Shown piece after piece: positions 1-37,352 of a DNA stretch of 50,896 bases; position 1 is the stretch's first letter; every line of letters begins with the position of its first letter. The translations under genes were made by a program, and so were the position numbers. Source of the stretch: a virus. The notes under the pieces are model-generated. The model saw only the letters and a program-made list of their open reading frames with translations, ran no database searches and was not told the origin of the DNA. The stretch is from IMG/VR virus record IMGVR_UViG_3300017719_000013, positions 1 to 50,896 of that record; one strand, 5' to 3'.

Positions 1-1203
1 TCTTTGAATCTCTTCTCGTGCATCGCTTAAAATTTGTTCTCCATTGAACTGAACGCCACCGGGCAATGTCATGCCATTGAACTTAGTGAGATTTGAACCC
101 CACTGATATTTGATTTTTGCTGTTGCATAGTTTTGTAAGAAACGATCTTTCCAAACATCAGAACCATTTGACGTATCTACAGTTTTATATGCTTCAACAA
201 CAATATAGTTACCCAGTGAAAGTTGATCCCAATCTGTATCAATCTGAATCTTGTTTGTGTGTCTATTGAATCTTAGTTGCTGTTTACCAACCAACATCTC
301 ATCTAAAAGAGATAGATGAGCCATTGACATATAGTAATGAGTTATGTTATAATTAACTATGTCGTGTAAGTTATGAAGAATAAACTGATACTTTGCGTTA
401 AACATACCAGTACCAGTAGATACTTCTGATTCCATTGGGAATAGATTAGAAACACCAATGTATGGGTCTTCAATAGTCTCGAAAGTAAGACCAGTTGTTG
501 AGCCAGCAACAGTTGTTTCGCCAGAACCATCTGTATTCTTTAACTGAAAAGTTCCACCACCAACTGAAGACGTAGATACTCTATAGTCACCAGTTGCTAG
601 TGTTGCTCCACCAGATAGCACACCAGATACTCTAATCAACTGACCTACTTCTGGAACATTTCCAGTTGTAGCAAACGAAGCACTTGTATCAGTTATCGTT
701 ATTGCACCAGTCATCTTCGTCTTAACACTTAGATCAATGTATCGAGTTTCGTACAACCCTCTATATAAATCTGCTATTTGTCGTGCATCATTAGCCCCAT
801 GAACACTTGCGAAAGTATCACTTGTAGCAAACTTACCTATAGTAAACTCACTTAGTGATGGTCTTTTAAAGAAAACTCTGTTGTTATCTACATCGACTGC
901 AACTACAGTTGCTTTTGCTGTGGCTTCTTCAGCACCACCATCTGATGCAGATACTTCTTTGATGACATCGCCTACTTTGAAGTCACCCTCTGAAAGTGTG
1001 CTAAATTCGATATAAGAGTTCAGTACTCTGGCTTTAAAATATACTTTTTCTACACCATCGAAGTGATAATCATGATAATATGCTAACGCCTCATCAACTC
1101 TATCTGTCACTTGATCATCAGAAACATTGATATCGATTACTGGTTTACCCAGTTTTCTGAGACAATATTCTTTAAATTCGGCTTTAGTTGTTGGCTCTGC
1201 CAT
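1..1203 (-). CDS. 13: Neck / head completion protein gp13 (3' end outside window)
   Basis: This gene encodes a T4 gp13-type protein, part of the neck ring that closes the filled head and receives the tail. 401 residues are present and the frame is still open at base 1, so the last residues are missing. The N-terminus (residues 15-55) carries the gp13 signature: a Leu-Arg-Lys-Leu-Gly segment, then YHFDGVEKVY near residue 46, against YHFDGVNKGF in T4. Near the other end, MTLPGGVQFNGEQIL (about 378-392) matches the T4 MMLPGGVTVDG segment. T4 gp13 is about 309 residues. The excess lies in two insertions, about 68-145 and 165-244; the second resembles a module in the beta-helix fibre. The start is the first ATG, 33 bases downstream of a leftward late promoter box. 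gp14 probably follows outside the window. Confidence 0.9.
   Translation of the reverse strand, partial: MAEPTTKAEFKEYCLRKLGKPVIDINVSDDQVTDRVDEALAYYHDYHFDGVEKVYFKARVLNSYIEFSTLSEGDFKVGDVIKEVSASDGGAEEATAKATVVAVDVDNNRVFFKRPSLSEFTIGKFATSDTFASVHGANDARQIADLYRGLYETRYIDLSVKTKMTGAITITDTSASFATTGNVPEVGQLIRVSGVLSGGATLATGDYRVSTSSVGGGTFQLKNTDGSGETTVAGSTTGLTFETIEDPYIGVSNLFPMESEVSTGTGMFNAKYQFILHNLHDIVNYNITHYYMSMAHLSLLDEMLVGKQQLRFNRHTNKIQIDTDWDQLSLGNYIVVEAYKTVDTSNGSDVWKDRFLQNYATAKIKYQWGSNLTKFNGMTLPGGVQFNGEQILSDAREEIQR
472..711 (-). other. Inserted beta module B within gp13
   Basis: Residues about 165-244 of gp13 form an insertion absent from T4 gp13. It has the order: short hydrophobic strand, VGQLIRVSG, then DYRVST, then FQLKNTDG, then a Thr-rich stretch ending TGLTF. 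The same order with similar words (LGDQVEITG, YVVSS, FTLVDTDG, TGLTF) occurs in the beta-helix fibre at 23318-23582. Similarity was judged by eye. Confidence 0.6.
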
Positions 1204-1236
1204 GTTCGATTCCTAAATTATGTTGATATAATATAC

Positions 1237-1244
1237 TATTTATA
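1237..1244 (-). promoter_or_regulatory. T4-type late promoter for gp13
   Basis: The leftward strand reads TATAAATA, an exact match to the T4 late promoter -10 element, which is recognised by the phage late sigma factor with the sliding clamp. It lies 33 bases upstream of the gp13 start codon in an intergenic region. Confidence 0.7.
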
Positions 1245-1280
1245 AGCAATAAAATCGTGCTTTTCATCAGATACAATGAG

Positions 1281-1298
1281 TATAAATATTTATAAATA
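1281..1298. promoter_or_regulatory. Tandem and palindromic late promoter boxes
   Basis: Two rightward TATAAATA boxes occur at 1281-1288 and 1291-1298, upstream of the 109-residue gene starting at 1350. Bases 1281-1294 form a perfect 14-base palindrome, so a leftward TATAAATA also reads from 1294 to 1287. The element could therefore fire toward the rightward fibre cassette and toward gp13. Confidence 0.65.
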
Positions 1299-1349
1299 AG
1301 TGATAACAGACTTCACTTAATTTCTACTTGAAAGGACAAAGGATTAAAA

Positions 1350-1679
1350 ATGGCAATTCCAATTTTACATACAATCGATAGCGGCACTAGTCAGGCAACA
1401 CATAACTTTCCAACAGATGATGGTGTTTTCTACAGAGGTGGTAAAAGCACATTCGCATTTTCTGGAGCAAACTTTAGCAATGTAACATCAATAAAAATAC
1501 AAGCTAATTTTGACGGCACGAACACAAACTGGATAGACTTAACAGACTCTAGTGATTCCCCAGTATCTTTTAATGATGCAACAATATTGACAGTAGATAT
1601 TGGTAAGTGTAACATAAGATTTCAGGTTGTTGTAGGAAGTGGCGGCACACAGAGTGATATTAACATTACGGTGTCCTAA
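1350..1679 (+). CDS. Small beta-rich virion-associated protein, function unknown
   Basis: A 109-residue protein with alternating hydrophobic and polar residues, rich in Gly, Ser, Thr and Asn. It has no cysteine pair, signal peptide or membrane segment, and looks like a single immunoglobulin-like or jelly-roll beta-sandwich domain. I do not recognise the family. It is the first gene of a rightward cassette, behind the tandem late promoter. An AAAGGA and a second AGG lie 7-20 bases upstream of the ATG. Its TAA stop overlaps the next ATG (TAATG at 1677-1681), so it is probably translated together with the 1037-residue adhesin-like protein. It may cap, chaperone or decorate that protein; this role is inferred only from position. 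Confidence 0.75.
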   Translation: MAIPILHTIDSGTSQATHNFPTDDGVFYRGGKSTFAFSGANFSNVTSIKIQANFDGTNTNWIDLTDSSDSPVSFNDATILTVDIGKCNIRFQVVVGSGGTQSDINITVS

Positions 1680-4600
1680 TGGGTCATATCCTAAAGGGGC
1701 AGGTTCGCTATACCCTAGCAGTTGAAGATGTTATTCAGCAGGGCGAAATACCCACAGACTTACAGGGTCTTCCGAGATTACCACTGTCTTTCACATCAGG
1801 CACTACAGCCTCGTTCAATGAAAACATTGATGACGATAGCTTAGTGTACACTGCTGTCGCTGAAAAACCTAATAGTGGTGGTAGCTTAGGTATCACTTAT
1901 GGATTGAGTGGAAGTGATAATACTTTGTTCCAACTGAATACAAACAGTGGAGCATTGACAATTAACGACAGTCCTGATTTCGAAAATAAATCATCATACT
2001 CTCTTTTAGTTTCTGCGAGCCATACAGGCTTTCTTCCAACAACACAAAGTTTGGCACTTAATGTCGTCAATCTTGATGATCTGGGCGTAATATTCCCGAA
2101 CAATGTTAGTTTTACATCGGGGGAATATGTTCGAACTGGTCAGGAATTCGGTAGCACTGTAACAACAACCGACCAAGATTTTGCAGGTGCTGTAACCTTC
2201 ACTCTTCAAGACCAAAATGGTTCTCCTTCAGACGCTGGCGGTAGAGTAGCAATATACACTCCTGGAAGTCTTGAGAGTAACCAATTTAAGATTAGAACTG
2301 GAAACACTCCGATGTCATTCGATCTTGATGGAAACAGTGTTGATTTCACGGTCAAAGCCGTTGATCAGGGCGGAAATGCATCCTACAAAACTTATACGGC
2401 GATTATTTCCAATAGAAATTTAATTAATAATTCTTCATATGTCACTATGCGAGGTTATCAGTCTCAAATAATAACTGATCTTCACCCTGCGGCGCAACCA
2501 TATCAATATGCAAACACCGCCCACGATAAAGGCACGATCTACAAGACATCAACATCAGGTGGTACTGGTGAGAGTGGAGGGAATATAAAAAATATGGTAG
2601 TAACCCTTAATGCTGGCACAAACACGAGAGTAAAGTATGATCTTACCAACTTGACGGCTACAAATGTAAATATTGTAGATAAACGCATAATGCGAGCAAG
2701 CGAAGTAGGTGTTACTCAGAATTGGAATAACTTGGGTACGATAAAGTTTTTAAGCGAATCAACTAGTCTCCCTTCCGAGCCAGCATTCATTTATACTGCT
2801 GTGTCGAGATATACCGCTAATGGAAGCATTACCGCATCAGTAGATGATATTGAATTCGCTAATGCGGCTGGCGCTAACTCTGACTATTCTGGTCTTGTCG
2901 GGTATAATGTTCCGAACACTCCGACACTTGCGGCATATAGACCATTAGACTATAGTGGAAATGTTTTTTATAGATTCGCAAATACAACTAACAACACCTC
3001 AGGAGCGTTTGAGGATTACGACAACACTAGTTCTTCCAGTAGAAGAATAAAGTTAAAGAGTGGTTCTTCCGTAAGTGCCGGTACAACATATCAACTAGAT
3101 ATTTTGGCGATGCCGACAGTTGCGGCATCTGTGACGAGTAGTGATTTTGAAAACTTTTCAACTAGGGACCCAGATGATATCTATCATACTGTTTGGGTGG
3201 GGGCAGGTACTTCCCCTAATGGTCATAGCAATACTGTAAACACCACAAACAATACCGTAAAAATAGAGCAAACTCCAATTAATGATCATTATGTGTTTAA
3301 TTGCACTGCGTCTGGAAGTCAAGCCGGCCCTCATTTAGTATTCCAGTCCAGTTCAGATACTGATGCTTTGAGTCGTAATCTAAGTGGGTCAACTAGTCAT
3401 CCAGTCATTAACTTGTATGTGGGTGACACAATGACACTTAATGTCCCTACTAGCGGGAGTCCTTTTAAGATAAAAACCGAAGCAGGTGGCTCTCCATCTG
3501 AATATATAGCAACTGGGTCAACTTATCCCGCTTCGGGAGTCATTGGCTTTGCTCCAAATAGCCCTCGCACATACTACTATTATAACCAAAACGATTATAG
3601 GGCAACTGGTCTAGTTCATGTCATGAGCAAAAACGATGAAATTATATTAAGAACTGGTGATAAAGTCGGTGTTGCTCCACAGTATACGAATCAGGGTATG
3701 CCTCTTGGTGATTTTGCTAATAATCACAGCATAGGTATGGGCTCTGAACGAGAATTTTATATTAGAAATTGGTATGAGATGGAAGGTGATGATGAAGATT
3801 ATGCGGGTATAGTTTCTTTCCACACTACGAAATCTGGTGCTGAAGATACGAACAGTAACCAAACAGACATCGTTAATATTACGGGTACTGCTACTGGAAG
3901 CAGTGGTGCAGGACTAAAGATCGCTCCTGTGACTGAATTCTCTACGAATTTAATTGTTTCCGATAATCCAGATTTAACGACTGCTTTCTCACCACTTAAT
4001 GCAGGTATGAATGCGACCGATGGAGGCTCATCTGCGGCCCCCGGTAGTAACGGTTCAAATGGTAACTATTCTGTCACGCAAAAAAGTTATGGAACTTTAT
4101 CAGTTTCGCCTAATAGTGATGGCAAATATCACATATATGTTTATGGTAAAAATGTACCTGGTAGTAATAACGACTATTTTGCATCTGATAATGCTATAGC
4201 ATATATTCAAATTGTAAACGCTCTTGGAACGGTTGTTGATCAAATTGATCCGATTTCCACTAATTGGGAGACAATGAGATGGCAGAATAGCCAGACCGCC
4301 GTAGCATTTCATAAATTTGTAATGTCTCCTACAGCGTTAGCAAGTTCATTTGCTGATACAGGATCTGCTAATAACAGAGTAACAACTGACTATTTCGAAA
4401 GTGGATCAACTCGATCTCTTGGAACAACAACCCAGCAGAGGGGTTGGAATATCAGAAGTGCCCCCGCAGGTAGTCTTGGTACAGGTCCGGACTATGGCAT
4501 TGTAAATCCACAGAGCAGTGCAATGGCTCTAGGTAATTCTAATCTGGCGCAGGTTCAGGGTAATAACTACTTGTATGCTGAACAAACATCTAGTTCATGG

Positions 4601-4792
4601 GCTGATGCAAATACTGGCATATACCCAGGAACTCATAAATATATGAGATCAGCAAACGCCTACAGCTTCCCTGCAGGAGGTTCAATTCTTATTGCATATT
4701 ATAATGCTGTATCCACTAACAATTTTAGTGGATCAAACAGCAACTCACTTGATGTCAATGATCAAATTGGTATAGCTTTATATCCATCATAA
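1679..4792 (+). CDS. Large adhesin-like fibre protein with cadherin-like and cupredoxin-like domains
   Basis: A 1037-residue all-beta protein, probably a host-recognition fibre or surface adhesin. Residues about 30-135 look like a cadherin-type repeat: an NTNSGALTI strand, then a PDFEN stretch and a VNLDD linker of the kind that binds calcium between repeats. A second looser repeat covers about 138-245. Residues about 537-651 resemble a cupredoxin-type sandwich (NLYVGDTMTLNVP, SPFKIKT, then YYYYNQNDYRATGLVHV), but the copper-binding His/Cys set is not evident. The C-terminal 250 residues form a further Gly/Ser/Asn-rich beta region. Translation is coupled to the 109-residue gene by TAATG. Fibre assignment is inferred from composition and neighbours. 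Confidence 0.75.
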   Translation: MGHILKGQVRYTLAVEDVIQQGEIPTDLQGLPRLPLSFTSGTTASFNENIDDDSLVYTAVAEKPNSGGSLGITYGLSGSDNTLFQLNTNSGALTINDSPDFENKSSYSLLVSASHTGFLPTTQSLALNVVNLDDLGVIFPNNVSFTSGEYVRTGQEFGSTVTTTDQDFAGAVTFTLQDQNGSPSDAGGRVAIYTPGSLESNQFKIRTGNTPMSFDLDGNSVDFTVKAVDQGGNASYKTYTAIISNRNLINNSSYVTMRGYQSQIITDLHPAAQPYQYANTAHDKGTIYKTSTSGGTGESGGNIKNMVVTLNAGTNTRVKYDLTNLTATNVNIVDKRIMRASEVGVTQNWNNLGTIKFLSESTSLPSEPAFIYTAVSRYTANGSITASVDDIEFANAAGANSDYSGLVGYNVPNTPTLAAYRPLDYSGNVFYRFANTTNNTSGAFEDYDNTSSSSRRIKLKSGSSVSAGTTYQLDILAMPTVAASVTSSDFENFSTRDPDDIYHTVWVGAGTSPNGHSNTVNTTNNTVKIEQTPINDHYVFNCTASGSQAGPHLVFQSSSDTDALSRNLSGSTSHPVINLYVGDTMTLNVPTSGSPFKIKTEAGGSPSEYIATGSTYPASGVIGFAPNSPRTYYYYNQNDYRATGLVHVMSKNDEIILRTGDKVGVAPQYTNQGMPLGDFANNHSIGMGSEREFYIRNWYEMEGDDEDYAGIVSFHTTKSGAEDTNSNQTDIVNITGTATGSSGAGLKIAPVTEFSTNLIVSDNPDLTTAFSPLNAGMNATDGGSSAAPGSNGSNGNYSVTQKSYGTLSVSPNSDGKYHIYVYGKNVPGSNNDYFASDNAIAYIQIVNALGTVVDQIDPISTNWETMRWQNSQTAVAFHKFVMSPTALASSFADTGSANNRVTTDYFESGSTRSLGTTTQQRGWNIRSAPAGSLGTGPDYGIVNPQSSAMALGNSNLAQVQGNNYLYAEQTSSSWADANTGIYPGTHKYMRSANAYSFPAGGSILIAYYNAVSTNNFSGSNSNSLDVNDQIGIALYPS

Positions 4793-4795
4793 ATA
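4788..4795 (+). promoter_or_regulatory. Probable late promoter (CATAAATA)
   Basis: CATAAATA, a one-base variant of the late promoter box, overlaps the stop codon of the 1037-residue gene and lies about 32 bases before the next start at 4827. The same variant precedes gp25 in this window. It would give the 943-residue gene its own late transcript. Confidence 0.45.
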
Positions 4796-4826
4796 GTATG
4801 ATAACACATGAATTAGAGAAAATTGC

Positions 4827-7658
4827 ATGGCTACTAGAAAATATCTAAAATTTGGTTTAAGGGCAGATAAAGACCTTTCCGATCTGACAAACTCTAAAAT
4901 TGCTGTAGATAACATCTTAAACAATTTGGCGAGTGGTTCTAATGTCTTTGGTCAGGCGTATAGCTTTTCTAGCGATGATATCGCTCCCATAAGAGAACTT
5001 GCTTCGACTGCTCTAATCGATATTATTGATCCAAATGATGCCTTGCCTAAAATACTTACAGATTTAGAGGGATCAGTTTCTAAATATGATGCTAGTGTAG
5101 TTCCAGGCGATCCTAAAAGTGGATTCCAGAATATACAACCCCAAGTTACTCTACAAGATCACTTAAATAGATTCAAAGTGGTCTTTGGTAGCCCACCATT
5201 TATTGCTGGCGGGTCAGGACCAACATCAGATTATATACACTCATCTAGATTGACCTATATTACTGGAGATATCGATAACTTTACTATCAATTTAACTCCA
5301 ACCACAAACGCTAGAAATGATTTAGTGATTGGTAATCGATATAAGATTTTAGATAAAGGTGATATCATAGATAGCCAATGGGATTCAATTGCTGTTGTTG
5401 ACGCAGGTTCATATTCTAACGGAGATGTATTTATCTGTGATCAGACTGTTGCTACAGTTATAGGTGCGAACACGACCGCTGTTGTTAGAGATGTTTCGAC
5501 TCCATCTGCAAACTATGCAACTGCACTACAAAATATACAACCAAACGATTTACCATCAAATAAATTATTTACGAGAGTCGTGAATAATTTACTCCCCAGT
5601 ATTGAGACTAGTGAAAATGCTTGGACAAGCGGTCAATTTGAATACACTGGTAGTATAAACGAGGCATTTAATAACAATGTTGGTGCTATTCAGCACACTG
5701 GATATCAAGTAGATCAATTTCAACCAGAAATAGAAACTAATGGATTGATGATAATCGAAGAAGATATTGTCGATACTCCGGGAGACGATACGAATTGGAG
5801 ATTCATAAGAGGAACAAATAGTTCAACTGTTGTCCCCACATATAATGTCACATGGCTAACAAACAGCAACGGATTTACCGAAATAACATTCACCAATATT
5901 GAAGATTGGAGAAAAGTTGCAAAATATATGCAATGTACAATAAATGGTGCGGCAGCAGGTGAGGTTTCCTCAACAGAAACTTCTAATGCAGACTATCGTG
6001 TTATTCTTGATGCTGATTTTGGAACTACTGAAAGTAGCGGAACAACCAATATAGAATTCTCATATACTATAGGTGGAGAATTCTATATTTGCTACGATAA
6101 GTTAGACTTTACTGCTCCTAGAGGAGACTTCAGACGAAAAGTACGATACACTGTGTGGTGGCCGGAAGGAACACCTGATGGAGCTAAGTTTTGGGGAAGA
6201 AAATATGATACTTCATATGACTTTGGGTCTTTGAATTTTTACAAGGTTCAACTTGACGAAACCTTTGTATCGCAAAGATATAGCTATCCATACTTTAGAG
6301 ATAATAGAGCAAATATACTCAAACAAAAAGGGGAAACAGAACTTAGAGTAGATACAAAGTTTTTAAACTTGTATCAGAAAGACGGTGCTGATAAAAACAT
6401 TGCTGAAAATACTAGCATTTTCCCAGACACAGCATCTCCCAATTATAACACTATTTCAAGTTTTACGATCACTGTTGATACCGGCGGAACCGTAGAAGCA
6501 AGTTCGGGCACCTTTGATAACGCTGAGGTCGGGGACTTTATAGTTTCTTCTCGTGATGCACATACTGGAAATGGTCAAAAGTACTTTGCAAACCAAATAG
6601 TACAAAAAGTAAGTGGTTCTAGGGTCTATATCGATAAGTTGTATGTGACTCAGACAGCAATACCATCACTAACTCCACACAAGGCGTTTTTGGTAAAAAA
6701 CAACGGTCTTATTGGAATATATAAATCATATGACGACTCTGGTGACATAACGATAGAAAGAATAGATGGAAACAATGAATTCGCAGTATACCCATTCGAA
6801 GTCGAAAGAGATACTATAGTCTATAAAATTGATGACGGTCCATTTATAGATACAGATAACGGAGATGGAACTTACTCACCAAGTACAGCAACAACACACG
6901 ATACGCATAGATATGGGTTTAGAGTTACTAGCGTAGGCCACAACAACAGCATATCTGCTTTATCGTCAGCATTAACAGTGGAAGCGCATCCATCTGATTC
7001 AGGAGCAACTATATCTACAAACAATGGTATTATGGTTGCATATACATCTAAGGGGTTGATTGATAGATCAACTGTTCAAGAATGTACTGATGTGTTTGGT
7101 CAAGAACTTGCTATAAACGCTAACTCAGGGCAAAACTCATTAACACTAAAAGACACAACTGGTATATCTGTTGGTCAGTATGCTTACTTTGACGGAGCAA
7201 TACCGTACGGAAATCCAGATGACACAGCAACAGGCTTTCCCACAATGACTAGAGTTATGACTGTTGATCATTCTACAAAAGTCATCACTTTAGGTAGAGG
7301 TGGAGTTGATTCTAACGGAGGCTTAACCATCGATGTTGACTTAACTGCCCCGATGTCAGCAGGAGCAACAATAGTATTCGTTCCTTATGACGCAGGTCCT
7401 GATTCTAATGGTTGGGATAGACAAAATAAAGAATACTGTGTTATACCACTAAACACTGCTCCACCGTGGGAAGGCACTGATTTAGGGCTTGCAAGTCCGG
7501 CTGTATCTTCTGTAGAAAATTACGGAGTTATGGCAAGAGAACTTAGAGTAGTTACTTTATCTCTTGTTACTCCAGATGTTAATATTGGAGTATATACTGC
7601 TGATAATGACGATAAAGTTAGATATATGAAAGTAAAGTATACCCCACCAGTAAGTTAA
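4827..7658 (+). CDS. Large fibre-like structural protein with module A
   Basis: A 943-residue beta-rich virion protein, last of the rightward cassette. Its first 60 residues (ADKDLSDLTNSKIAVDNI, then FSSDDIAPIREL) resemble the N-termini of the leucine-rich-repeat protein and, more weakly, the 835-residue protein on the other strand, suggesting a shared attachment segment. Residues about 166-224 contain one copy of module A (IGNRYKILDKG, DSQW, NGDVFIC). The middle has many aromatic beta strands, with VWWPEG near residue 447. About 770-850 includes a LTLKDTTGISVGQYAYFDG strand pair of the sort seen in phage fibres. No catalytic motif was recognised. The ribosome site is weak (AGAGAAA). Its stop overlaps the opposing gene's stop. 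Confidence 0.75.
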   Translation: MATRKYLKFGLRADKDLSDLTNSKIAVDNILNNLASGSNVFGQAYSFSSDDIAPIRELASTALIDIIDPNDALPKILTDLEGSVSKYDASVVPGDPKSGFQNIQPQVTLQDHLNRFKVVFGSPPFIAGGSGPTSDYIHSSRLTYITGDIDNFTINLTPTTNARNDLVIGNRYKILDKGDIIDSQWDSIAVVDAGSYSNGDVFICDQTVATVIGANTTAVVRDVSTPSANYATALQNIQPNDLPSNKLFTRVVNNLLPSIETSENAWTSGQFEYTGSINEAFNNNVGAIQHTGYQVDQFQPEIETNGLMIIEEDIVDTPGDDTNWRFIRGTNSSTVVPTYNVTWLTNSNGFTEITFTNIEDWRKVAKYMQCTINGAAAGEVSSTETSNADYRVILDADFGTTESSGTTNIEFSYTIGGEFYICYDKLDFTAPRGDFRRKVRYTVWWPEGTPDGAKFWGRKYDTSYDFGSLNFYKVQLDETFVSQRYSYPYFRDNRANILKQKGETELRVDTKFLNLYQKDGADKNIAENTSIFPDTASPNYNTISSFTITVDTGGTVEASSGTFDNAEVGDFIVSSRDAHTGNGQKYFANQIVQKVSGSRVYIDKLYVTQTAIPSLTPHKAFLVKNNGLIGIYKSYDDSGDITIERIDGNNEFAVYPFEVERDTIVYKIDDGPFIDTDNGDGTYSPSTATTHDTHRYGFRVTSVGHNNSISALSSALTVEAHPSDSGATISTNNGIMVAYTSKGLIDRSTVQECTDVFGQELAINANSGQNSLTLKDTTGISVGQYAYFDGAIPYGNPDDTATGFPTMTRVMTVDHSTKVITLGRGGVDSNGGLTIDVDLTAPMSAGATIVFVPYDAGPDSNGWDRQNKEYCVIPLNTAPPWEGTDLGLASPAVSSVENYGVMARELRVVTLSLVTPDVNIGVYTADNDDKVRYMKVKYTPPVS
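7655..7658. other. Shared TTAA: two convergent stop codons overlap
   Basis: The rightward gene ends TAA at 7656-7658 and the leftward gene ends TAA at 7657-7655, both inside one TTAA palindrome. There is no intergenic space and I see no hairpin terminator nearby, so each transcript must run into the other gene's antisense strand. Confidence 0.9.
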
Positions 7659-10162
7659 GGTCCTGTTTCTTCCGTAGTAATAACTTTATAGTTCCCTGCG
7701 GCTATGTCAGCGGCATCAGCATATGCTAATAAGGAATACACTTCTCCGTTTACATTAATTGGAATCTTATGCGTGAACTCAGTTACTTGTCTTGCAAAAG
7801 TTTCACCATCACCGTGTTTTGGATATAATCCATCATCGTCAATATCTTCTTGATTATCATTAGCAAATATTAATTTTGGCTCTCCTTTTGCAGTACCACC
7901 ACTTGGTGTAGGATTACCAGAAGCAGTAGAGCCTGCGCCGGTTGCTGTAGCAACAAAAGAGTCACCAACTCTAGCTATCATTTTTGCTACTTTACCTGTT
8001 GACCCAGATGTTCTACCATTCTGTACCGCAATAAATATGTCACCCAGAATATAGTCTTCTCCGACTGTACCCGCAACATAGTTCCAGTCACCATCACCTA
8101 CAGAAGTGATTTCATATTTTTTCCCTAAACGAATATTCTCATATGCAGTAAGACCATAGACTTCACTCCAATCTCTATTTACCCCTAAGTCTTCTATGAT
8201 ATAACTTTCTGTCGGAACAAATACTCCCCAAGAAATTAAGTCTCTTCTGTCAATTAAAAGATTACCTGCCTGCGCTGTAGGAGATGTAGTTTTTAGAAAT
8301 GGCGCAGTCAGTGTTAAGTTTGGTGCTGTACCTGATATATTAGGTAGAAGAGCCCCATTGTATAAGAAATTAGTATGTAAATTGCCATAATTGGTTGTAT
8401 TCGATATATCTAAGTCTAGAGACTGATCTTTTACCCAGGGATTATCTTTACCACTAAAGGCTCTTTTTGCTTCGCCCGTTCCGGGGTTAGATATGTACAG
8501 ACCCTTAGGTTCTATAGATTTTGCTCTACTGCTAGAGTTTAAATTTCCACCTGTAGAAGTAGCAATAAATATTGCAGGCGCAACTGTAGCACCACTTATT
8601 TCGTTAGCACTAGATAAGTTTGATGCAGTAACCAAATCACCAACTTCATATGTTACTGGTGCAGAAGTAGTACCAGAAAGTTCATTCCATACCGCCTGAT
8701 TATCCACCGTTAGTGTGAATTCGCCAGTATAAGGTGCTTGTTTCGTTAAGTTTAATGCCGCACCACCGTCATCAGTAGATAAAGTCATTAGCTGTATTCT
8801 TTCTGCTGTAAGTCTTCTAACATAGTAAGTAGTACCACTTGTTAGAGGGGCTATTTCTGCACCAGAAGTTTTTTGATATACTACAAGATCGTTAGTCTGT
8901 AATCCATGATCTGATCCATTAGTTAGCTGTATGTATTCATTACCAATACTATCATTAACTGAACCATCAGTAAAGGTAAACACTCCGTTGGTGCCTAGAA
9001 CTGAAGTACCAAAGTCTGTAATCTTATATACCCTATCTTGCTCTAAATTAGATTGCGTCAAAGATATGCTTTCAACACCAAGAGCAAGGCTATTTGTACC
9101 AACATTTGACCATATGGCATTACCGATTTGTGTTACCTCGTACTTTTGTCCAATAACGAGATCGCCAAAAAGGGTGGGCACACCAATTTTTAATGTTCTG
9201 TTTGTAGATGACTGTGGTCTATTTGTAACTCTAACAGCACCATCAAACCTAATACCATACTGCATATTAAATCTATTATTGACATATGTCAAAATAACCT
9301 TTTTCTTTTTTATGTTTATCTGGTCTATTTGAGATTGTATGTCTGGTATACCGCCCTCTAAATAGGTTTCTTGAGTTTGTACATCATACACTTCATCTCC
9401 AAATGGGTCTGGAGATAATGTTGACAATGTATCTTCATTATCCCTTGTATTTAAAGAGACATCTAATCCAAGAGGGGTAATATGAGCATTGTTTATATTT
9501 TGTATAGTAATACTATCATTTCTAGTAATAATTAAATTAGTTACCACTCCCGCACCGCTTCCAGTATCCAAATCCCATATAGCATTAACATCAGACTTGT
9601 CTGCTAACTGAAAGGTATCTACGCCATTACTATTAACTACTTGATAATCGTAAGAATCTCCATTATTGACAGAAACAGGTGTACCTTGAGTAAAAGCAAC
9701 ACGACCCCTACGCTTGATGACTTTAATTGTCCAACCTTCAGACGGATCGCCAGAAGTTTCAAAAAAGGCTGTAAATTCGGTAACATTTATAAGTTCAAAT
9801 GCAGACCCGAATGCTCCAACTATATAATCTGCTCCACTGTTAGTGGCGATAAATACATCATTAACTTGTGGTAAGGGTCCAGTTCCATCGGTGTTTGCCT
9901 CCCATCCAACTTGAGGCCAGTCTCTACTATTACCAACATTGTTAATCTTGTAGCGTTTACCAACTTCAAAAGCACCCCAGGGAATAGACTGGCCTAACTC
10001 ATTTGGATTATTCACGAGTCTAGACCTGTGTCCAAGATTTCCAACAAACAGACGAATGTCGTCAGATATACCAACACCACCCAGGTTGTCGATTATATTT
10101 TTATCAGCTAGAAAGCTATTACTTTCTCCTAAGTTTGAGTTTGTTACAAATCCTTGAGCCAT
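7655..10162 (-). CDS. Fibre-like structural protein with several module A copies
   Basis: An 835-residue protein, last gene of the leftward structural operon. It is largely built of the recurrent module A: clear copies near residues 60-118 (GKRYKINNVG, RDW, NDVFIAT), 332-365 (GQKYEVTQIG, IWSNVG) and 676-728 (GKKYEITSVGDGDWNYV, GDIFIA), with two partial copies near 373-398 and 646-678. Residues about 410-480 hold the HGL module (DHGLQTNDLVVY, then TSGTTYYVRRL). The first 40 residues (SFLADKNIIDNLGG, SDDIRLF) resemble the N-terminus of the 943-residue protein. AGAGGA sits 8 bases before the ATG. I infer a peripheral fibre or baseplate appendage; no enzyme motif is visible. Confidence 0.75.
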   Translation of the reverse strand: MAQGFVTNSNLGESNSFLADKNIIDNLGGVGISDDIRLFVGNLGHRSRLVNNPNELGQSIPWGAFEVGKRYKINNVGNSRDWPQVGWEANTDGTGPLPQVNDVFIATNSGADYIVGAFGSAFELINVTEFTAFFETSGDPSEGWTIKVIKRRGRVAFTQGTPVSVNNGDSYDYQVVNSNGVDTFQLADKSDVNAIWDLDTGSGAGVVTNLIITRNDSITIQNINNAHITPLGLDVSLNTRDNEDTLSTLSPDPFGDEVYDVQTQETYLEGGIPDIQSQIDQINIKKKKVILTYVNNRFNMQYGIRFDGAVRVTNRPQSSTNRTLKIGVPTLFGDLVIGQKYEVTQIGNAIWSNVGTNSLALGVESISLTQSNLEQDRVYKITDFGTSVLGTNGVFTFTDGSVNDSIGNEYIQLTNGSDHGLQTNDLVVYQKTSGAEIAPLTSGTTYYVRRLTAERIQLMTLSTDDGGAALNLTKQAPYTGEFTLTVDNQAVWNELSGTTSAPVTYEVGDLVTASNLSSANEISGATVAPAIFIATSTGGNLNSSSRAKSIEPKGLYISNPGTGEAKRAFSGKDNPWVKDQSLDLDISNTTNYGNLHTNFLYNGALLPNISGTAPNLTLTAPFLKTTSPTAQAGNLLIDRRDLISWGVFVPTESYIIEDLGVNRDWSEVYGLTAYENIRLGKKYEITSVGDGDWNYVAGTVGEDYILGDIFIAVQNGRTSGSTGKVAKMIARVGDSFVATATGAGSTASGNPTPSGGTAKGEPKLIFANDNQEDIDDDGLYPKHGDGETFARQVTEFTHKIPINVNGEVYSLLAYADAADIAAGNYKVITTEETGP

Positions 10163-10186: not shown

Positions 10187-13100
10187 CTACAAATAGTCTT
10201 CATCAAGTGAGATAGTCCAACCATGATCTGTTGTTAGACTTCTCCATTTATTGTATGGAGACAAATCTGCTTCTGCTCCGGGGTCATCTTTTAAAGCCTG
10301 AAGACACATTCTTTTTATGGGCTGTCCTTGAGAATCGATTCCCGCATCCTGCCCCGTAAATTGGAAGTATACTCCTGTGGATTTGCTTTTCGAGCGATTT
10401 TCCCACAAATCATTTATGATTGATAGCGTATCTTCTGCCCGCAGTGCGTTGTTTCTAAAAGAAGCATATGATATTAGTGTTGCATCTGAAAGGGTGCCAG
10501 GAGTGTGACTGTCAAATTTATTATCATATGCATAGATATTTGTTATGCCTGTAATGCCACTAAGGTCTGGAAGAGGCCCAGTAAATCTGTTTCCGTACAC
10601 AAACAGGTATTGCAGTGTTTTACCAGAGCCACCTTGTCTAAGTTTTGGAAAGTCGCCATAAAAATTATTATTATACATAAAGAGATACTGGAGTCCACTT
10701 AAACCAACTATCTCGCCACCTGTACCAGTCTGTAACTCCCAAGAAGTGCCCGGAGTCGCAACACTTTTCATACTATATCTAGCAACTGTGCCTGTTCCAT
10801 AGTTAGTAGTGCTTACTTTTTGTACATATCCACCATGAGTTCTTTCCGCTTCTACTCCATTGCTATTTGCAGTAAATACTGTGTCTACAGCAGTTGACCC
10901 TCCAGACTTAACTGTACTCCATGCGGATGTACTATTACCAGTCTGTATGATTTTATATTCCACACCGCTTTGTATGTCAGCCATGTTAATTCTGTTTGCT
11001 GATGTAGTCGCTGTAAATTTTGTTCCTTTAGCAGGAGTACCAGAAACACCAAGTGCTTGCCACTGGGCTTCACTTGTGCCGTCAGGGTCTAAAATAACAT
11101 ATGTTATGCCAGCAATAAGACTATTTGCAGTCAACGGCTGATATATAAACCAGTCGTTTGATGATGGATGTGACCCATGTAGGGTGTTTGACCCCCAAGG
11201 CACTATATCATTATCTTTATTTCCTACTCCAACAAAAGATCCTTGCTTCCACCCCATGTCTATCATTTCTTCTTTACATAAATCATACTCGAAAGAACCA
11301 CCACCACTTTCAGCAAAAATACTATTCCTTTGGGTGGTTGAAAAATCCATAGCAGAGAATTTGTACGCCTCACCGGGTTTCATAGCAAACATTGGTACGG
11401 TCATTGTTCTCATATTCGATATAGTTGCCTGCCTACCACTGGCAATGCCACCAATATTTGGAAAAGTTCCAAAAATCTGACTGTAAGTTATGTATACTGG
11501 TCGCCAGCTAGTGCCGTTCATATCTTCAACACCTAAACTCCTATCGGCATGAATAAATTTAGTGGCAGTATACCTGTGACTGCTGAAATAGAATGTATTT
11601 ATTCTGTTTTTAACAGTTTGTAATATTTGTCCAGTTTTATCAGATCCAGATGCGCCCTCCAGTCCAAACAAATCATGCTCAATCCCATATGGTGAAAGGG
11701 CTAAATAATCATCTAGATTACTATAAGTACTTTCATATAACTCAAGTTTACTAATTCTGGGCGACCCACTAAAAGTATTGTCGTTTAATGAAAACTGCAA
11801 ACCCTTGTTTTGCCCAAAAATCACAGTGGACATATCGGGTTTGTTTCTAAATACAGCACTTACATTACCAAATATTCTTCTACTAGTAGTACCGCAAGAC
11901 TTAATTTCAAGTTTTAATAAATTAGGTAACGGGGTCAATTTACTGCTGTCTAGAGTTCTGCTTACCAAAGGAAATGTATCCAAAGGGTCAGTATCATAAA
12001 GAGTAAGGCTTGTTAGCGTGTTATCCCATTTACTATAATCCAAGAATGTCAGTTGCGTGTTAGAACTTACATATGTTTTTAATTTATCTGTCGCTAAGTA
12101 GTGTTCACGATCTTCATTGCTCTTAGCTATTGTATCTGTGGTCGAATCATCATAAAATCTATACTCACTAGTACCTACTAACGAAGGACAAGTTCTAACA
12201 CTAAATGAAGTCATTCTCTTACTATCAGCTACAGACGTTGGTATATATCTAAGTGTATAATTATTACTTTGAGGCCAGGATACAAGGCCCACTTGCGTAT
12301 TATACTTGATGTCGCCAGCACCATCATTTGCTGAGATATCCCAGACAACAAAACTATGAAAGGTCCCCGTTCCGGTGCTACTATAGCTACTTATAACCTG
12401 ATTCTGAATAGTTTGTAGTGTAAAAGTGTTTTCAGTCACACTAGCAACTTTATATATCGTTTCATCTACAAGGCCTCCAATTGCAGTACCTAGTGTCCCT
12501 TCAATTGTAGTTGCATCTCCATCATCATCACCAACTCTAACATCATAACGAACATAATCTCCTGATTTCAATCCATGTTCAGTAAAAGTAAACACCCCAG
12601 TACCTGCATTAAGCGCAGTCTGTGGATTGAAATTAATCCTGAGAGTTGCCGAAGCGAATGTAGCGCCATCATCACCAAGTCTTAGCTGTGGGTATCTTGA
12701 ATTGGTGTTATATGCACCTAGTAATGGTGTTTCCAATACTGGAAGATGCGTTAAGTCTAAATCTGTTGCATCCCCCTCAAAGGAGTTTCTGAAATCAAAG
12801 TATTTTACGCTTGATGGAAGTCTGTCCATATTGGCTTGAATTGATCCATCAAAAAAACTACCATCTCCGTTTAAGTTATTTTCATTAGCATGATTTGCAG
12901 AATTGAAAAAATTCTGAAATTGCATATTTACTCGTTCTACCCTGCGAGCATATGTCTTAAGGTCGGGCATAAATTCTAAATTATCGCTATATAAAGTAAG
13001 ATATCTCAGGTTATCAAAGCTAGTCTTAGGGAATGCATCTATACCGTTGCGATACGAATACATAGATGTAATATTAGCAGGGTTATAGAAAAATTTAGTT

Positions 13101-13906
13101 TTAATCTCTTCTGCCACAACACTAGCAGTGCCTGGGCTATAAATATTGTATGAACTTTGTGGTGTTCTTTCATATGGTTCACCTATTTCTTCACCAGTTT
13201 CCAAATCTTCTCTGACAACAGTAAGAGGTATGTTTCTTCCATCAGCACCTTCCAACAGCGGAGTTTTGAAATAAAAAGTTATTCTTGGGTCTGGTTTACT
13301 CATAACCATTTCAAAGGGTATTCCACGCATAACCGGGAATGAAACTAATTTCCCATTTATGTTAATTTTGATTATGTGTGTCGCAACTTCTGATCTAAAT
13401 CTTTTTCTATCTGGAGCCTTAGTTAATGATAAGTCTGTAATAGAGAGATACTTTCCTTTAACGTGAACATCAGAGTTGTAAATTATAAACTGATCTGGTG
13501 CTTCTGGAGGGCCAAACGGCGACCAAGAAGACACCCTTGATGTAGATATGTCCGCACCCTTTGAGCCCCAAGAAGCATCACTAAAGTCTATATAATTAAA
13601 TTTTATAGTTCCGCAAACTAGCTTGTTATCTATTTCATAATTAAAAACTTGGTCAGTATCTGCTCTCTTTATTCTGGCTGAGTCCAACCCCGCAACAGAG
13701 GCAGCATTTTGCATAGAAGCCATCAAATTTCTTTGATCATCGACAAGACCAGATAAGGTATGAATTTCATCACGAGTTATTACTGCGCTTAAATTTCTTA
13801 TCAAATCTAAATTGTCTATTCTCAAACCAAGATTGGCTAAAGCAACATCAGAATTGGAGATGTCGCTCAAACTCTTAGCTACATTGAGTCCTCTATAAAT
13901 TGTCAT
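10187..13906 (-). CDS. Tail fibre-like protein with leucine-rich repeats
   Basis: A 1239-residue structural protein. The N-terminus (GLNVAKSLSDISNSDVALAN) resembles that of the 943-residue protein on the opposite strand. Scattered leucine-rich-repeat units are visible: NLRYLTLYSDNLEFMPDL near 299, units around 560-680, and a clear C-terminal set at about 1069-1160 (LQYLFMYNNNFYGDFPKL, LQYLFVYGNRFTGPLPDL, ITNIYAYDNKF), where the NxFxGxxP pattern is that of ligand-binding leucine-rich-repeat proteins. It also holds the HGL module near 430-500 and two module A copies (about 926-971 and 975-1030). Its ATG overlaps the preceding stop (TAATG) with GGGAA upstream. A receptor-binding role is inferred. 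Confidence 0.75.
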   Translation of the reverse strand: MTIYRGLNVAKSLSDISNSDVALANLGLRIDNLDLIRNLSAVITRDEIHTLSGLVDDQRNLMASMQNAASVAGLDSARIKRADTDQVFNYEIDNKLVCGTIKFNYIDFSDASWGSKGADISTSRVSSWSPFGPPEAPDQFIIYNSDVHVKGKYLSITDLSLTKAPDRKRFRSEVATHIIKININGKLVSFPVMRGIPFEMVMSKPDPRITFYFKTPLLEGADGRNIPLTVVREDLETGEEIGEPYERTPQSSYNIYSPGTASVVAEEIKTKFFYNPANITSMYSYRNGIDAFPKTSFDNLRYLTLYSDNLEFMPDLKTYARRVERVNMQFQNFFNSANHANENNLNGDGSFFDGSIQANMDRLPSSVKYFDFRNSFEGDATDLDLTHLPVLETPLLGAYNTNSRYPQLRLGDDGATFASATLRINFNPQTALNAGTGVFTFTEHGLKSGDYVRYDVRVGDDDGDATTIEGTLGTAIGGLVDETIYKVASVTENTFTLQTIQNQVISSYSSTGTGTFHSFVVWDISANDGAGDIKYNTQVGLVSWPQSNNYTLRYIPTSVADSKRMTSFSVRTCPSLVGTSEYRFYDDSTTDTIAKSNEDREHYLATDKLKTYVSSNTQLTFLDYSKWDNTLTSLTLYDTDPLDTFPLVSRTLDSSKLTPLPNLLKLEIKSCGTTSRRIFGNVSAVFRNKPDMSTVIFGQNKGLQFSLNDNTFSGSPRISKLELYESTYSNLDDYLALSPYGIEHDLFGLEGASGSDKTGQILQTVKNRINTFYFSSHRYTATKFIHADRSLGVEDMNGTSWRPVYITYSQIFGTFPNIGGIASGRQATISNMRTMTVPMFAMKPGEAYKFSAMDFSTTQRNSIFAESGGGSFEYDLCKEEMIDMGWKQGSFVGVGNKDNDIVPWGSNTLHGSHPSSNDWFIYQPLTANSLIAGITYVILDPDGTSEAQWQALGVSGTPAKGTKFTATTSANRINMADIQSGVEYKIIQTGNSTSAWSTVKSGGSTAVDTVFTANSNGVEAERTHGGYVQKVSTTNYGTGTVARYSMKSVATPGTSWELQTGTGGEIVGLSGLQYLFMYNNNFYGDFPKLRQGGSGKTLQYLFVYGNRFTGPLPDLSGITGITNIYAYDNKFDSHTPGTLSDATLISYASFRNNALRAEDTLSIINDLWENRSKSKSTGVYFQFTGQDAGIDSQGQPIKRMCLQALKDDPGAEADLSPYNKWRSLTTDHGWTISLDEDYL
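10430..10702 (-). repeat. Leucine-rich repeats in fibre C-terminus
   Basis: This segment encodes at least three consecutive units of the form LxxLxxYxNxFxGxxP, followed by a degenerate unit (ISYASFRNNALRAED) and a cap. The repeats are protein-level; the DNA copies have diverged. Confidence 0.65.
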
Positions 13907-16900
13907 TATTGTTCCCTATTCGTCACAGATAGTTCTAGATTGCCCGCTTGTCCATCCAAAGATGTCGCAGTTATATATACCGCTCTATTATTTAGTGAAC
14001 CTCTAGTAATGCTTTTTCTATCTCTCGAAAAAATATTATCCAATCCTATACTTAAAGTTTCATTTTGACCAACATATGCAGAGTATAAAACATTCCCGGG
14101 TCTCAAAGAATTTGAAAGCTGAGTAGACTTGTCGTATCTTGACGCAGATAATCTATCATTAGAATTAAATGACGAAGGAGAAGATGTCGGTGGAACATTA
14201 TATGAGTGTGGCTGCCCTAGATGAGTACCAGTATTAGAATTATTTACAGTTATATTATGACCCGTATGAGTCTCTAGAGCAAAATCTGGAGTATGTGTTC
14301 TGATATCACCCATCTCTAATATTTCCTCGATCACAATACCATTTATCTTAGCATAGTCCCCCAAAGCAAACACTGGATATAGTGGTTGCGTATTGAAAGA
14401 AACTGCCTTTATAGATGAAAATGATTTATGTTCGTTTTGTCTATTACCAAACTCGTCTATTGAAAATGCCTTCCAGTCATCTTTTAGCGTAAGAGTTTTA
14501 GTCTGTAAAATTCTATCATCTTCAGATGCAGAAGCAAGTTCGGTTAGTAGTGAAGCGTCATACTCTACATATATAAATGAGCCAATCTCTTCTCTTACAG
14601 TATCTTGAATGAAGTCGCTAACAAACTTCACTCCAGTTCCACCAAAATTTCTTCCTAATTCAGATTGATTTGGAATTATTCCCTGTGGTGGAGAAAATGC
14701 TGGCGGGAAGTTTATTTGAATTCTTGATGCGCCTTCAAAGAAAACGCTTTCAGGCTCTACAGAATGATATCGAAAATCATTAACAGTAACTTTACCGACA
14801 ATAGTACATATGTTACCCCTGTCTAATCCATCTATTTTATTCTCTACGTTTCTATCTAGTCTAGGGTCAATTTCGAATCGATTTCCATAGAGTGGATCAT
14901 ACTCTCCGTATTCATAGTCATTTCTATGATCAAATTTAACATCAGAATGAGAAAATTCCACATAAGGAAACTCTGTAGAATCAAACTCTTTGTACTCTAG
15001 ACCATCGTCTCCTGTAAACTCAAACTTTAATTCTGGATCACTATCTGATCTCTGAGCAGTTTCTTTAGGTTCATATGGAGTTATTCCTATACCAAACTCT
15101 GCCCAGTGTTGATAATCATATGGATGTGGAGTTGAACCATCTTCAATGGGGTCTATGCTTGTTGGATTCAAGAAATGTATCTTAAAGTTATCCGTAAATA
15201 TTGGAGTTTTAGATGCGACTATTGCTCTGTTATTACTCAAGTGTGCGTCAAACACTAAGCCTGGGTCTTCGACAGATATTATACTACCAGTTCTTTTTTT
15301 AGAGTTAGTTGCGGTTGCCTCAACTCGTTCGTAGGGATCTTGATTAAAATTATCTCTTCCCCTTTTGTTAATCGTACCAGTTTGATCTGCAATATATGTT
15401 CCATAAACTCCATCTGCTATCACATGAGACCCAACTTCATCTAGGTTTATCTGGTGAGATACAGTTGCAGTATCGATATATGTTGATGTGGTTTCTGTGC
15501 CATTTTCAATAGCTTTATCTAGTATAACTTGTACCGCTCCTGTGCTACTAAACGATGAAGTTCCTACTGCATTTACAAAACTTTTAGCATAGCAAGTGTC
15601 GTTCACACCATCTATAGCTATAGCGTCTCCAACTTGAACACCATCAAATGTGTGTTGATAGTTACCATCGGTAGTGTCTATTGTTATAGTTGATGACTGA
15701 TTCGCATAACTTACCTTAAATTGAGGTCCTATTAATATTCTATTGCCATTGCCCTGTCTAGTAAAGACTGTAGAGTTATCTTCGAGATTTAAACCAACAA
15801 CAGAGATTCTACTTGGGGGAGTACCACTACTATACTTAAAAGTTAACTTTCTACTTTTAGGGTGTCTGCCATTCATATGTAAAGATGCTGAATAATTAAA
15901 ATGAACTCCCTGTGGAGAACCCTTGATTTCTTCGAAATCAATTCTAGTGGCTTTATTAGAAGATACTGTTAGCGTAGTTGGGTAAATCTTCTTAAAATTA
16001 ACTCTAGGAATACCGTCACTATTAAGTATTTTTTCTTTTGGCATTATTCCAAGTATAGGAGTTCTAGTAGTAAATGTTTTAGTATCAACATTTTCTGAAG
16101 ACAATCTTATTGTGCCTTCATCACCACCGTCTACATACACCGATGATCCATACTTGTAAAGATATATCGGTGATCGAATTTCTTTAGTATTAGAAGTGGC
16201 AAGCAAATACTTCATTCTGAAATCTGGATTTTCGAGAACAGGCTCTCCAAGAGCATTCTCAATGACAAATGTATGCATAAGAACCCATCTAGCATCACCA
16301 TTACCCACAGGAACATATGCATAAAACTTAGCACCAATGGCTCCGTACCACGAGAACTCGATTTTATACATTGTAACATCTTCGAAAGATAGTGTGTAAC
16401 CAGAAAGACCACCGCCCTGAAGAGCATCGCCATTAAACTGCTCTCTTAGTATTCTTGTTTGGTATAGTTTTCCGGCATTTGGATCATTTTGATTAATATC
16501 GTTTCTTACGCCCGGAAGAGAAACTAAAGTTTGATTAGTTCTAGGTATACCTTCTCTTTCAAACCAAGTATCGGGAAGTTCTACTGAACTTCTTCTTATA
16601 ATACTTAATGATTCGCCTTTAAGTTGAAACATATATTCATCAGTATCATTAGAGCATCCCCACTCAGCAACAGTGGAAGATGTTGGTGCGCCATCAGATT
16701 GCATTCTAACACCAAAAGTAAATCCGCTTACACGCCCAGGTTGATATCTAAAAGTTCTTTTACTTAACAGTATCCCATGATAAGGCGCAGTATTAGAATC
16801 TCCAGGTAGAGCCCTATCATCACGAATCATATTTTGAATCAGCGTGTATTCGAAGAATGCTTTATAGCCTTCATCTCTTATTCGATCCTCTCTGTCTGTC

Positions 16901-36377: not shown

Positions 36378-37352
36378 TTACTGAGAACGAGGTTGTTTGC
36401 TTACCGGTCCTACGACATACGGATAAGCGGGGTTATTCGGTACTTCATCTTCGCTTACTTCATCGAATGTTAAGAAGTAAGCATATGTGCCTTCTTTGAA
36501 ATCTGGTGTTACGCAATATCTTCCATTAAATGCGTCTAGAGTACCTGTAAATTCTTTAAGTTCATAGTCTTCTACATAGATCCCTTGTATAATAGATACT
36601 CTTTCTGGATGATTCAATATCGGATCATCTTGATCTCTGAGTCCATAAGCACTTATCATTTGCACCACGCTAGAAGTTGGGTCGAGTGGTTCGTAATATC
36701 CATATGGACCGTAAATTGGAAATCCATCAAGTGCCCATCCTATTATCTTAGAGTGACCCGCAGTGAATGTTGTGTTATCATGTTCAATCGTATCATGTCT
36801 TAGATAATCTGAACCAAAGGAACTAGAACTTATGTAGTCACTGGAGTTGACAAAAATCATATTTGGATTAGCGCCATTAGCAAATCCATTGTAACAAAAG
36901 TTTCCAGTTCTATATCTATACTCACCATCTACTTCTGGTCTACCACCACAGTTATCTAATGCGTCATTCAAGTCCGGGCTACCCAGATTGAAATGAAAAG
37001 TAGAACCAGAATTGGAATTATCTGTTGGATGAATTTTAGATAATGGGCTATATATTGGAACTCCATTAATAGCAACACCAACAACATCATCTTCTTGTAC
37101 TCTTTTACTTGGTTCAGAATACTGATCTCTGTCACCTGCACGATATTTTATTTTATACTCTTTAGGTGGATCCCTATCTATTATTGTATTATATCCAGTT
37201 CTAGTGTCCGAAAACCCTCTAACAGCACCAGTGTTTAGAGGAGAACCGAAAGTAACACCAAATTTACCATCGCTAGAAACTCCATCAGTGTTTGCACTGC
37301 CTGCTTTAGCAGGAAAAGGATCTCCATCTGTTTTTATTTTCAAAAATGCCAT
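36378..37352 (-). CDS. YHYH-domain virion protein
   Basis: A 324-residue protein with features of the YHYH domain: GHSKIIGWALDGFPIYGPYG at about 197-216, and toward the end NGRYCVTPDFKEGTYAYFLT with a YPYVVGP finish. YHYH domains occur in secreted bacterial proteins and, as I recall, in marine T4-like phage structural genes; their biochemical role is not settled. The gene sits between gp7 and gp8, its ATG overlapping the gp7 stop (TAATG). T4 has no gene at this position. It has several aromatic and Cys residues (DNCGGRP, NFCYNG, YCVTP) that could form disulfides. A baseplate-exposed binding protein is inferred. Confidence 0.8.
   Translation of the reverse strand: MAFLKIKTDGDPFPAKAGSANTDGVSSDGKFGVTFGSPLNTGAVRGFSDTRTGYNTIIDRDPPKEYKIKYRAGDRDQYSEPSKRVQEDDVVGVAINGVPIYSPLSKIHPTDNSNSGSTFHFNLGSPDLNDALDNCGGRPEVDGEYRYRTGNFCYNGFANGANPNMIFVNSSDYISSSSFGSDYLRHDTIEHDNTTFTAGHSKIIGWALDGFPIYGPYGYYEPLDPTSSVVQMISAYGLRDQDDPILNHPERVSIIQGIYVEDYELKEFTGTLDAFNGRYCVTPDFKEGTYAYFLTFDEVSEDEVPNNPAYPYVVGPVSKQPRSQ

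Follow-up and report, generated by a model that had tools for sequence, protein, structure and literature searches.

The window, the whole 50,896-base virus record that was analysed, carries T4-like tail genes, and baseplate wedge, hub and tube-cap families were assigned to its right-hand part. The large ORFs all lie on the minus strand save three, A, B and C, which occupy the plus strand between gp13 and D; gp13 and the large ORFs from D through the window end are on the minus strand. A previous sequence-only reading had described these three genes as running opposite to both flanks, with coordinates and orientations that proved exact. It was also right that the group ends tail to tail with the structural operon, as the stop codons of C and D share the TTAA at 7655–7658. 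No terminator-like site was found around this junction (7400–8000). The features of the locus are as follows:

1–1203, minus strand: gp13-like neck protein (PHROG 211, head-tail adaptor, E 4.8e-36), open at the window edge
481–714, minus strand: ~78-aa accessory domain within gp13 (residues 164–241), from a profile search
1237–1244, minus strand: separate late box TATAAATA ahead of gp13, also present in ten aligned relatives
1281–1288, plus strand: extra late box
1287–1298, both strands: palindrome TATTTATAAATA, a putative bidirectional late promoter, single copy in the window
1350–1679, plus strand: gene A, 109 aa, predicted β-sandwich
1679–4792, plus strand: gene B, 1037 aa, cadherin-like putative adhesin, hypervariable
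4788–4795, plus strand: late-type box CATAAATA at the head of the C leader
4827–7658, plus strand: gene C, 943 aa, conserved opposite-strand structural-type protein (18-sequence alignment; relatives at 71 loci)
7655–7658: convergent stop codons of C and D, overlapping by 4 nt on TTAA
7655–10162, minus strand: gene D, 835 aa, tail to tail with C
10187–13906, minus strand: gene E, 1239 aa, LRR-like, with an N-terminal segment common with C
13906–18099, minus strand: gene F, 1397 aa, virion structural protein (PHROG 1645, E 6.5e-36), S-TIM5 homolog

C is part of a syntenic block, F-E-D-C, that includes gene F. The protein is conserved at both ends across 18 aligned relatives, with a KYLKFG.RAD-like motif and a PLNTAPP[WF] motif, and so looks like a structural scaffold with variable inserts, not a free receptor-binding tip. 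The best segments in relatives are 21–60% identical to the window's C. There was no PHROG or Pfam match of note, the AlphaFold model was only moderate (mean pLDDT 65), and a structure search returned no PDB match at E 1e-3; the 29 BFVD matches at E 1e-3 were low-TM phage matches (TM about 0.1) that gave no identification.

The N-terminal motif previously proposed to be common to C and E is real, and the two N-termini align by profile. When 46 C and 33 E N-termini were compared with hhalign, the probability was 89.6 (E 2.2e-7, score 39.5), while the best score in 30 column-shuffled control runs was 13.6. N-terminal profile comparisons of C with D and of D with E found nothing. The suggestion of a common docking site stands only as this C/E homology, according to which C and E may dock to the same or an equivalent tail site. 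The description of E as a leucine-rich-repeat protein comes down to a sub-threshold Pfam match (LRR_4, E 0.0071).

Protein B matches the Pfam Cadherin family (E 4.3e-8; 33.9 bits, cut-off 28.8). It is 26–34% identical to B of five relatives, though its first 175 residues are 54% identical in L014. Being cadherin-like and mostly unconserved, B is the best candidate for a receptor-binding adhesin. Protein A, at most a putative fibre protein, is predicted to fold as a single β-sandwich, for which Foldseek found no PDB match at E 1e-3. The best VIA-align matches were YomS (Z 8.6) and XepA (Z 8.3), scores too near the β-sandwich background to name a family. By profile search, the accessory domain of gp13 also turned up in H1188, another protein of the window, and in the gp13, C and F proteins of relatives.

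Orientation and gene content in relatives

Relatives were gathered through both gp13 and C. Through gp13, 80 of the 576 found were kept, and mapping was limited to those in which 1.5 kb or more precedes gp13. A single-protein C query retrieved no relative among the viral contigs, but the 18-sequence alignment did, and the best 80 of 82 confirmed stretches found in this way yielded 71 C loci, all of which were mapped. Tblastn searches with C (the window, L007 and L155 versions) and with B gave no match in 50,697 phage records. The search of genome contigs turned up one contig in a MAG. We considered whether C is absent from loci that have no C near gp13, and rejected this reading for four of them: the contigs of L051, L061, L062 and L063 carry C ~30 kb away, so that in these at least it is the distance to gp13 that differs, not the presence of C.

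C lies opposite D, and adjacent to it, in 66/66 assessable loci among these 71 (from the best 80 of 82 stretches). C and a D label were both present in 67 of the 71, corresponding to 59 distinct C sequences, with the strands opposite in all. Left out of the orientation count were L109, in which C is cut by the contig end and the "D" label is a weak match 5.5 kb off; L151 and L152, which have no D label; L176, in which no C ORF was called; and L179, in which C is labelled and its neighbour unlabelled. At the 67 loci where the C and D stops were measured, the overlap is 4 nt in 28 and 12 nt in 16, and in 7 the two stops abut.

The same layout is found in the cultured cyanophages S-TIM5 and S-TIM54 (Aurunvirus), where F, E and D are co-directional and are followed by a C homolog on the other strand. 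As in the window, the C homolog and D meet tail to tail, their ends overlapping by 4 nt in S-TIM5 and lying 2 nt apart in S-TIM54. The C homolog was found only with a wider profile, and the match is confined to the N-terminal 100–170 profile positions (E 3.3e-16 at positions 9–175 in S-TIM5 and 1.4e-10 at positions 8–116 in S-TIM54, in a ten-protein search). Profile matches in S-TIM5 and S-TIM54, respectively, were 4.4e-9 and 6e-8 for D, 2e-25 and 2.3e-27 for E, and 8.9e-132 and 5.2e-127 for F, and the proteins concerned are annotated as virion structural. The C unit of these phages differs from that of the window in having PhoH and a 189–190-aa structural protein in place of A and B. In Mosig, phiM12, P-TIM40, Melnitz-1, Cr30 and DLP6 (part only), the genes just upstream of gp13 are co-directional, if the opposite-strand ORFs annotated within phiM12 structural genes are disregarded. 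Six other named-phage regions searched with narrow HMMs of A, C, D, E and F gave no match.

None of the 21 inverted-repeat pairs in 900–8000 placed strong repeats at both cassette ends; cassette-spanning inverted matches reach no more than 75–86% complementarity, and none lies at both ends. Across the assessable loci, the opposite orientation of C and D is a fixed, probably old state and not a switch.

Orientation was the same everywhere among the relatives compared, but gene content varied strongly. In the Type I arrangement, A is followed by B, usually by a small gene, and then by C, all on one strand. This type comprises the window, L002–L006, L011, L014, L015, L017 and L019, some of which are partial: the L003 locus breaks off after the start of C, those of L017 and L019 stop inside B, and in L015 A alone is present. 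The small gene is missing from the window and L011; in L014 it matches DUF7936 (E 1.1e-15), a match that the L005 version does not show. In the Type II arrangement (17 loci, some near-duplicates), C alone runs backward, facing genes on the gp13 strand. One of the genes that C faces, from L012, matches PHROG 1084 and also PHROG 3304, whose annotation is L-shaped tail fibre assembly.

A palindrome between divergent units

Exact TATAAATA boxes occur eight times in the window against 5.95 expected, which is no excess over chance. Four of the eight, two per strand, sit in the 146-bp gap between gp13 and A, at 1281–1288 and 1291–1298 on the plus strand and at 1287–1294 and 1237–1244 on the minus strand. 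The two plus-strand boxes correspond to the tandem late promoter reported earlier, but this is half of the story, as the inner pair (1291–1298 plus, 1287–1294 minus) forms a divergent palindrome, TATTTATAAATA. This sequence is its own reverse complement and consists of two divergent T4-type late boxes with four bases (TATA) in common.

Counted over 50 junction-deduplicated loci, the window among them, TATTTATAAATA has 38 copies against 0.45 expected in 929 kb (maximum 2 in 20 resamplings), and all 38 sit at the divergent junction. Of these, 37 fall inside the scored box; the 38th (L120), 47 bp before the C start, misses the box only through an overlong call of the neighbouring ORF. Two loci (L114 and L160) fall short of the junction, and the palindrome is therefore present in 38 of the 48 loci that cover it. 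Exactly one copy was found in 16 of 18 longer records, some of them near-duplicates (reversed control, 0); the two without it are of the L155 type. Among eight named complete genomes the palindrome was found in none, and the reversed control in one, Mosig. S-TIM5 and S-TIM54, unlike the window, have no palindromic late promoter.

The palindrome starts 45–57 bp before the C start codon in Type II loci, where the gaps measure roughly 60–85 bp if the neighbour's start is plausibly called. Since the 38 contexts were chosen by the exact 12-mer, its invariance among them follows from selection, and the information lies in how many there are, where they sit and how the flanking bases drift; the dyad extends to 14–16 bp in 14 of the 38. 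Leaders were predicted by a simple search for a start codon and a ribosome-site-like triplet, with medians over the 38 contexts of 30 nt on the C/A side and 21 nt on the other (values that include one evident misread on the C/A side and five on the other). Predicted Type I leaders are longer, at 46–49 nt on the C/A side and 75–78 nt on the other.

The ten covered loci without the palindrome have separate head-to-head late-like boxes in the same place. In nine of them GATAAATA points toward C and GATAAATA or CATAAATA away from it, 3–6 bp apart; in L178 the boxes are CATAAATA and TATAAATA, 41 bp apart. Divergent NATAAATA boxes are found at 48 of 48 covered junctions, as a raw count by a looser pattern. 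As the palindrome is missing from 10 of 48 loci and from S-TIM5 and S-TIM54, the inversion does not require it. A gp55 homolog was found in four of the eight relatives' records searched, one of them weak and in a record without the palindrome; the three others hold it, two being near-duplicates. Type I loci have further one-way boxes in both arms. At the place equivalent to the box in the window's C leader, TATAAATA is found in L004, L005 and L006, with none in L011; because C has its own box in Type I, coupling of the two arms there would be partial at most.

T4-type late promoters (gp55, TATAAATA) likewise have an exact box upstream of structural genes; in the window clade, by contrast, two boxes are fused into one palindrome between divergent units. 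T4 late boxes span −13 to −6 according to the part of PMC1524935 used here, which places the two predicted starts at the palindrome 23 bp apart. In bacteria, the bidirectional promoters described by Warman, Grainger and co-workers have a symmetric −10 element between divergent genes (excerpts of PMC12825309 and PMC10268837), are defined by starts 7–25 bp apart (PMC10268837, excerpt) and most commonly have starts 18 bp apart (excerpts of both papers). The predicted 23 bp lies within the 7–25 bp range given there, and by analogy the palindrome would be transcribed in both directions. The bacterial examples in these excerpts are cellular promoters demonstrated by start-site mapping, whereas the element here is a phage late-sigma version predicted from sequence. 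One bound polymerase excludes the other at such promoters, and at five of them basal transcription was too low for competition (both from the excerpt of PMC12825309), which implies that an effect on the output ratio needs a strong promoter. An excerpt of the rV5 paper (PMC3606486) mentions bidirectional promoters of host-consensus type; in the excerpts covered by our literature search, no symmetric bidirectional promoter for a T4-type late sigma was found described.

Alternatively, the palindrome might amount to a pair of ordinary one-way late promoters brought into overlap by nothing more than a short gap, with the orientation a frozen accident and the arms uncoupled. The short Type II gaps, the single boxes at 1237–1244 and 4788–4795, and the ten loci with non-overlapping boxes (3–6 bp apart in nine, 41 bp in one) are what such an arrangement would leave. 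However, the overlap stays at exactly 4 bp even where the best segments of C are 21–60% identical to the window's, while the flanking bases drift, and the 146-bp gap of Type I has room for separate boxes and yet retains the palindrome. We consider this explanation rather unlikely, although it fares best among the alternatives. Less probable still is that the palindrome is a site for a dimeric regulator, recombination, replication or packaging, and that its match to late boxes is secondary. The perfect dyad symmetry, its extension in some contexts, the single copy per record in 16 of 18 and the location at an observed recombination boundary would suit such a site, but the T4 late box is matched exactly by each half, with start codons at promoter-like distances on both sides, gp55 homologs occur in some of the records, and all ten loci without the palindrome keep divergent late-like boxes in its place.

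Module exchange and a model of the locus

Comparison of individual Type I loci revealed a mosaic. L004 and L005 are 96% identical in A, 79% in B and 89% in the small gene, but only 36% in C and 38% in D. Conversely, L005 and L014 are 94% identical in C and 96% in D, but 49% in A and 28% in B, and L004 and L006 are 87% identical in C, 90% in D and 98% in gp13, but 58% in A and 26% in B. The window's gp13 is 93–97% identical to that of L002–L006 and 63–70% identical to that on the contig of L014; its gp6 and gp25 are 73–74% identical to those of L004 and L006 (those of L002–L006 with contigs that reach these genes) and 88–93% identical to those on the L014 contig. Among relatives with a gp13 as similar as 93–97%, the three with longer contigs have an arm that is far more diverged. 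These identities imply separate histories for gp13, for A with B and the small gene, and for C with D. Thus, A and B (with the small gene where present) swap apart from C, C moves with D, and gp13 moves separately again.

The nucleotide profiles place the crossover at the C promoter-leader and first codons. L005 and L004 are 92–100% identical over the last 200 bp before the C ATG and 30–64% past the first 50 bp of C, while L005 and L014 are 34–46% identical in the stretch 200–50 bp ahead of the ATG and 88–100% past the first 50 bp of C. The ~37-bp C leader is identical in L002–L006 and L014, less similar in the window, and different in L011. At the other end, identity over the inner 120 bp of the gp13/A gap is 86–100% in the nine Type I loci compared, although A proteins are 41–65% identical to the window's A. 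Over its final 120 bp, the window's gp13 is 95–100% identical to the L014 class and 90–98% to L002–L005; much of the middle of gp13 aligns poorly with the L014 class and is 78–100% identical to L002–L006. The module switches fall at conserved promoter-leader DNA common to the strains. The hyperplastic regions of T4-like cyanophages (PMC2984593, excerpt) similarly have variable genes within a conserved structural cluster. There, the hypervariable region lies between g15 and g18, whereas the modules here lie beside gp13 on opposite strands and, unlike in that region as described in the excerpt, the switches map to promoter-leader sequences.

The sequence-only reading had called the cassette exchangeable or inverted; exchange is real, although the units differ from the three-gene cassette. 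Fibre switches in Mu and P1 are invertase-driven, but a segment that flips here and so alternates host range can practically be dismissed, as genes opposite to both flanks and variable content are outweighed by the single orientation at 66/66 assessable loci, by spanning inverted matches that are only 75–86% complementary and never at both ends, and by the same layout in the distant cultured phages.

The reading that we prefer, at a probability of about 0.68 for the whole, is that of an old, fixed opposite-strand late unit with a symmetric late promoter and an adhesin-like module inserted between this promoter and C. In this clade of uncultivated marine T4-like phages, the C unit would be an opposite-strand late transcription unit. 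Late RNA polymerase, with a gp55-type sigma and no −35 element, would bind the palindrome one way round or the other, a single polymerase at a time. From starts ~23 bp apart it would transcribe the C unit to one side and, to the other, genes on the main structural strand. In Type II, C directly follows the palindrome. In Type I, the window and its nearest relatives, A and B, often with the small gene, stand between the two, and C mostly keeps its own one-way late-type box and leader. The mosaic sequences show that strains have exchanged these modules, with switches at the conserved promoter and leader sequences; B is presumably the variable adhesin.

More speculatively, and on balance doubtfully, the one symmetric late-sigma promoter per genome may act as a divider, with the backward fibre unit to one side of it and the forward structural genes to the other. 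Polymerase bound in one orientation or the other, never both, would fix the ratio of their outputs, and the same promoter DNA would provide the homology block for swaps of adhesin and tail-arm modules, combining regulation and exchange in one element.

The unexpected element of the locus is the palindromic putative late promoter, present once per record in 16 of 18 longer records. Bidirectional promoters with a symmetric −10 element have been described for cellular sigma factors, and the palindrome would be a late-sigma version; since the T4 late promoter is only an 8-bp box, 12 bp is about the smallest that a full version could be. From this locus it can also be seen at which points natural phages switch in trading adhesin-like genes, namely in promoter and leader DNA common to the strains.

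Genes and late boxes around C

Between the putative cadherin-like adhesin gene B and the plus-strand gene C, which ends tail to tail with D, the relatives L014 and L005 carry a small gene:

L014:7748-8080, small gene between B and C
L005:4473-4802, small gene between B and C

This gene encodes a DUF7936 protein in one module and an unrelated protein in the other, and the difference suggests that the products are partner proteins specific to the B of their module. Upstream of C, the palindrome of two overlapping, divergent T4-type late boxes is replaced in nine relatives (L155, L159, L163, L168, L169, L170, L171, L174 and L180) by two separate, head-to-head GATAAATA-like boxes spaced 3-6 bp apart. 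A homolog of C was also present on a contig binned in an Opitutales MAG (L183), which is probably a phage contig within that bin.

The gp13 gene

The gene for the gp13-like neck protein (1-1203, minus strand) looks mosaic from its sequence relationships, since its middle groups with L002-L006, while for its final 120 bp the L014 class is equally near or nearer. In several relatives (L004, L006, L008, L012 and L014) the contig likewise terminates near the start of gp13, within ~1.5 kb of it; a possible reason is that this stretch is common to the strains.

Shared motifs and domains

A short YxI..G...W-type motif, e.g., YEITSVGDGDWNYV, was found repeatedly in window tail proteins: C, D, E, H1188 and a protein of 1424 aa encoded at 37352-41626. 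In addition, gp13, C, F and H proteins from this clade carry, at differing insertion points and on both strands, a ~78-aa domain that resembles a mobile decoration domain. Its copies include:

481-714, minus strand, gp13 residues 164-241
H1188, residues 928-1009

Affinities of the tail arm

For the baseplate protein gp6 (41633-43390), the closest matches are in Sinorhizobium phages (39.6%), whereas the virion structural protein F (13909-18099, minus strand) is nearest, among named phages, to cyanophages S-TIM5/S-TIM54. Judged by these affinities, the tail arm appears to be a mosaic of different lineages.
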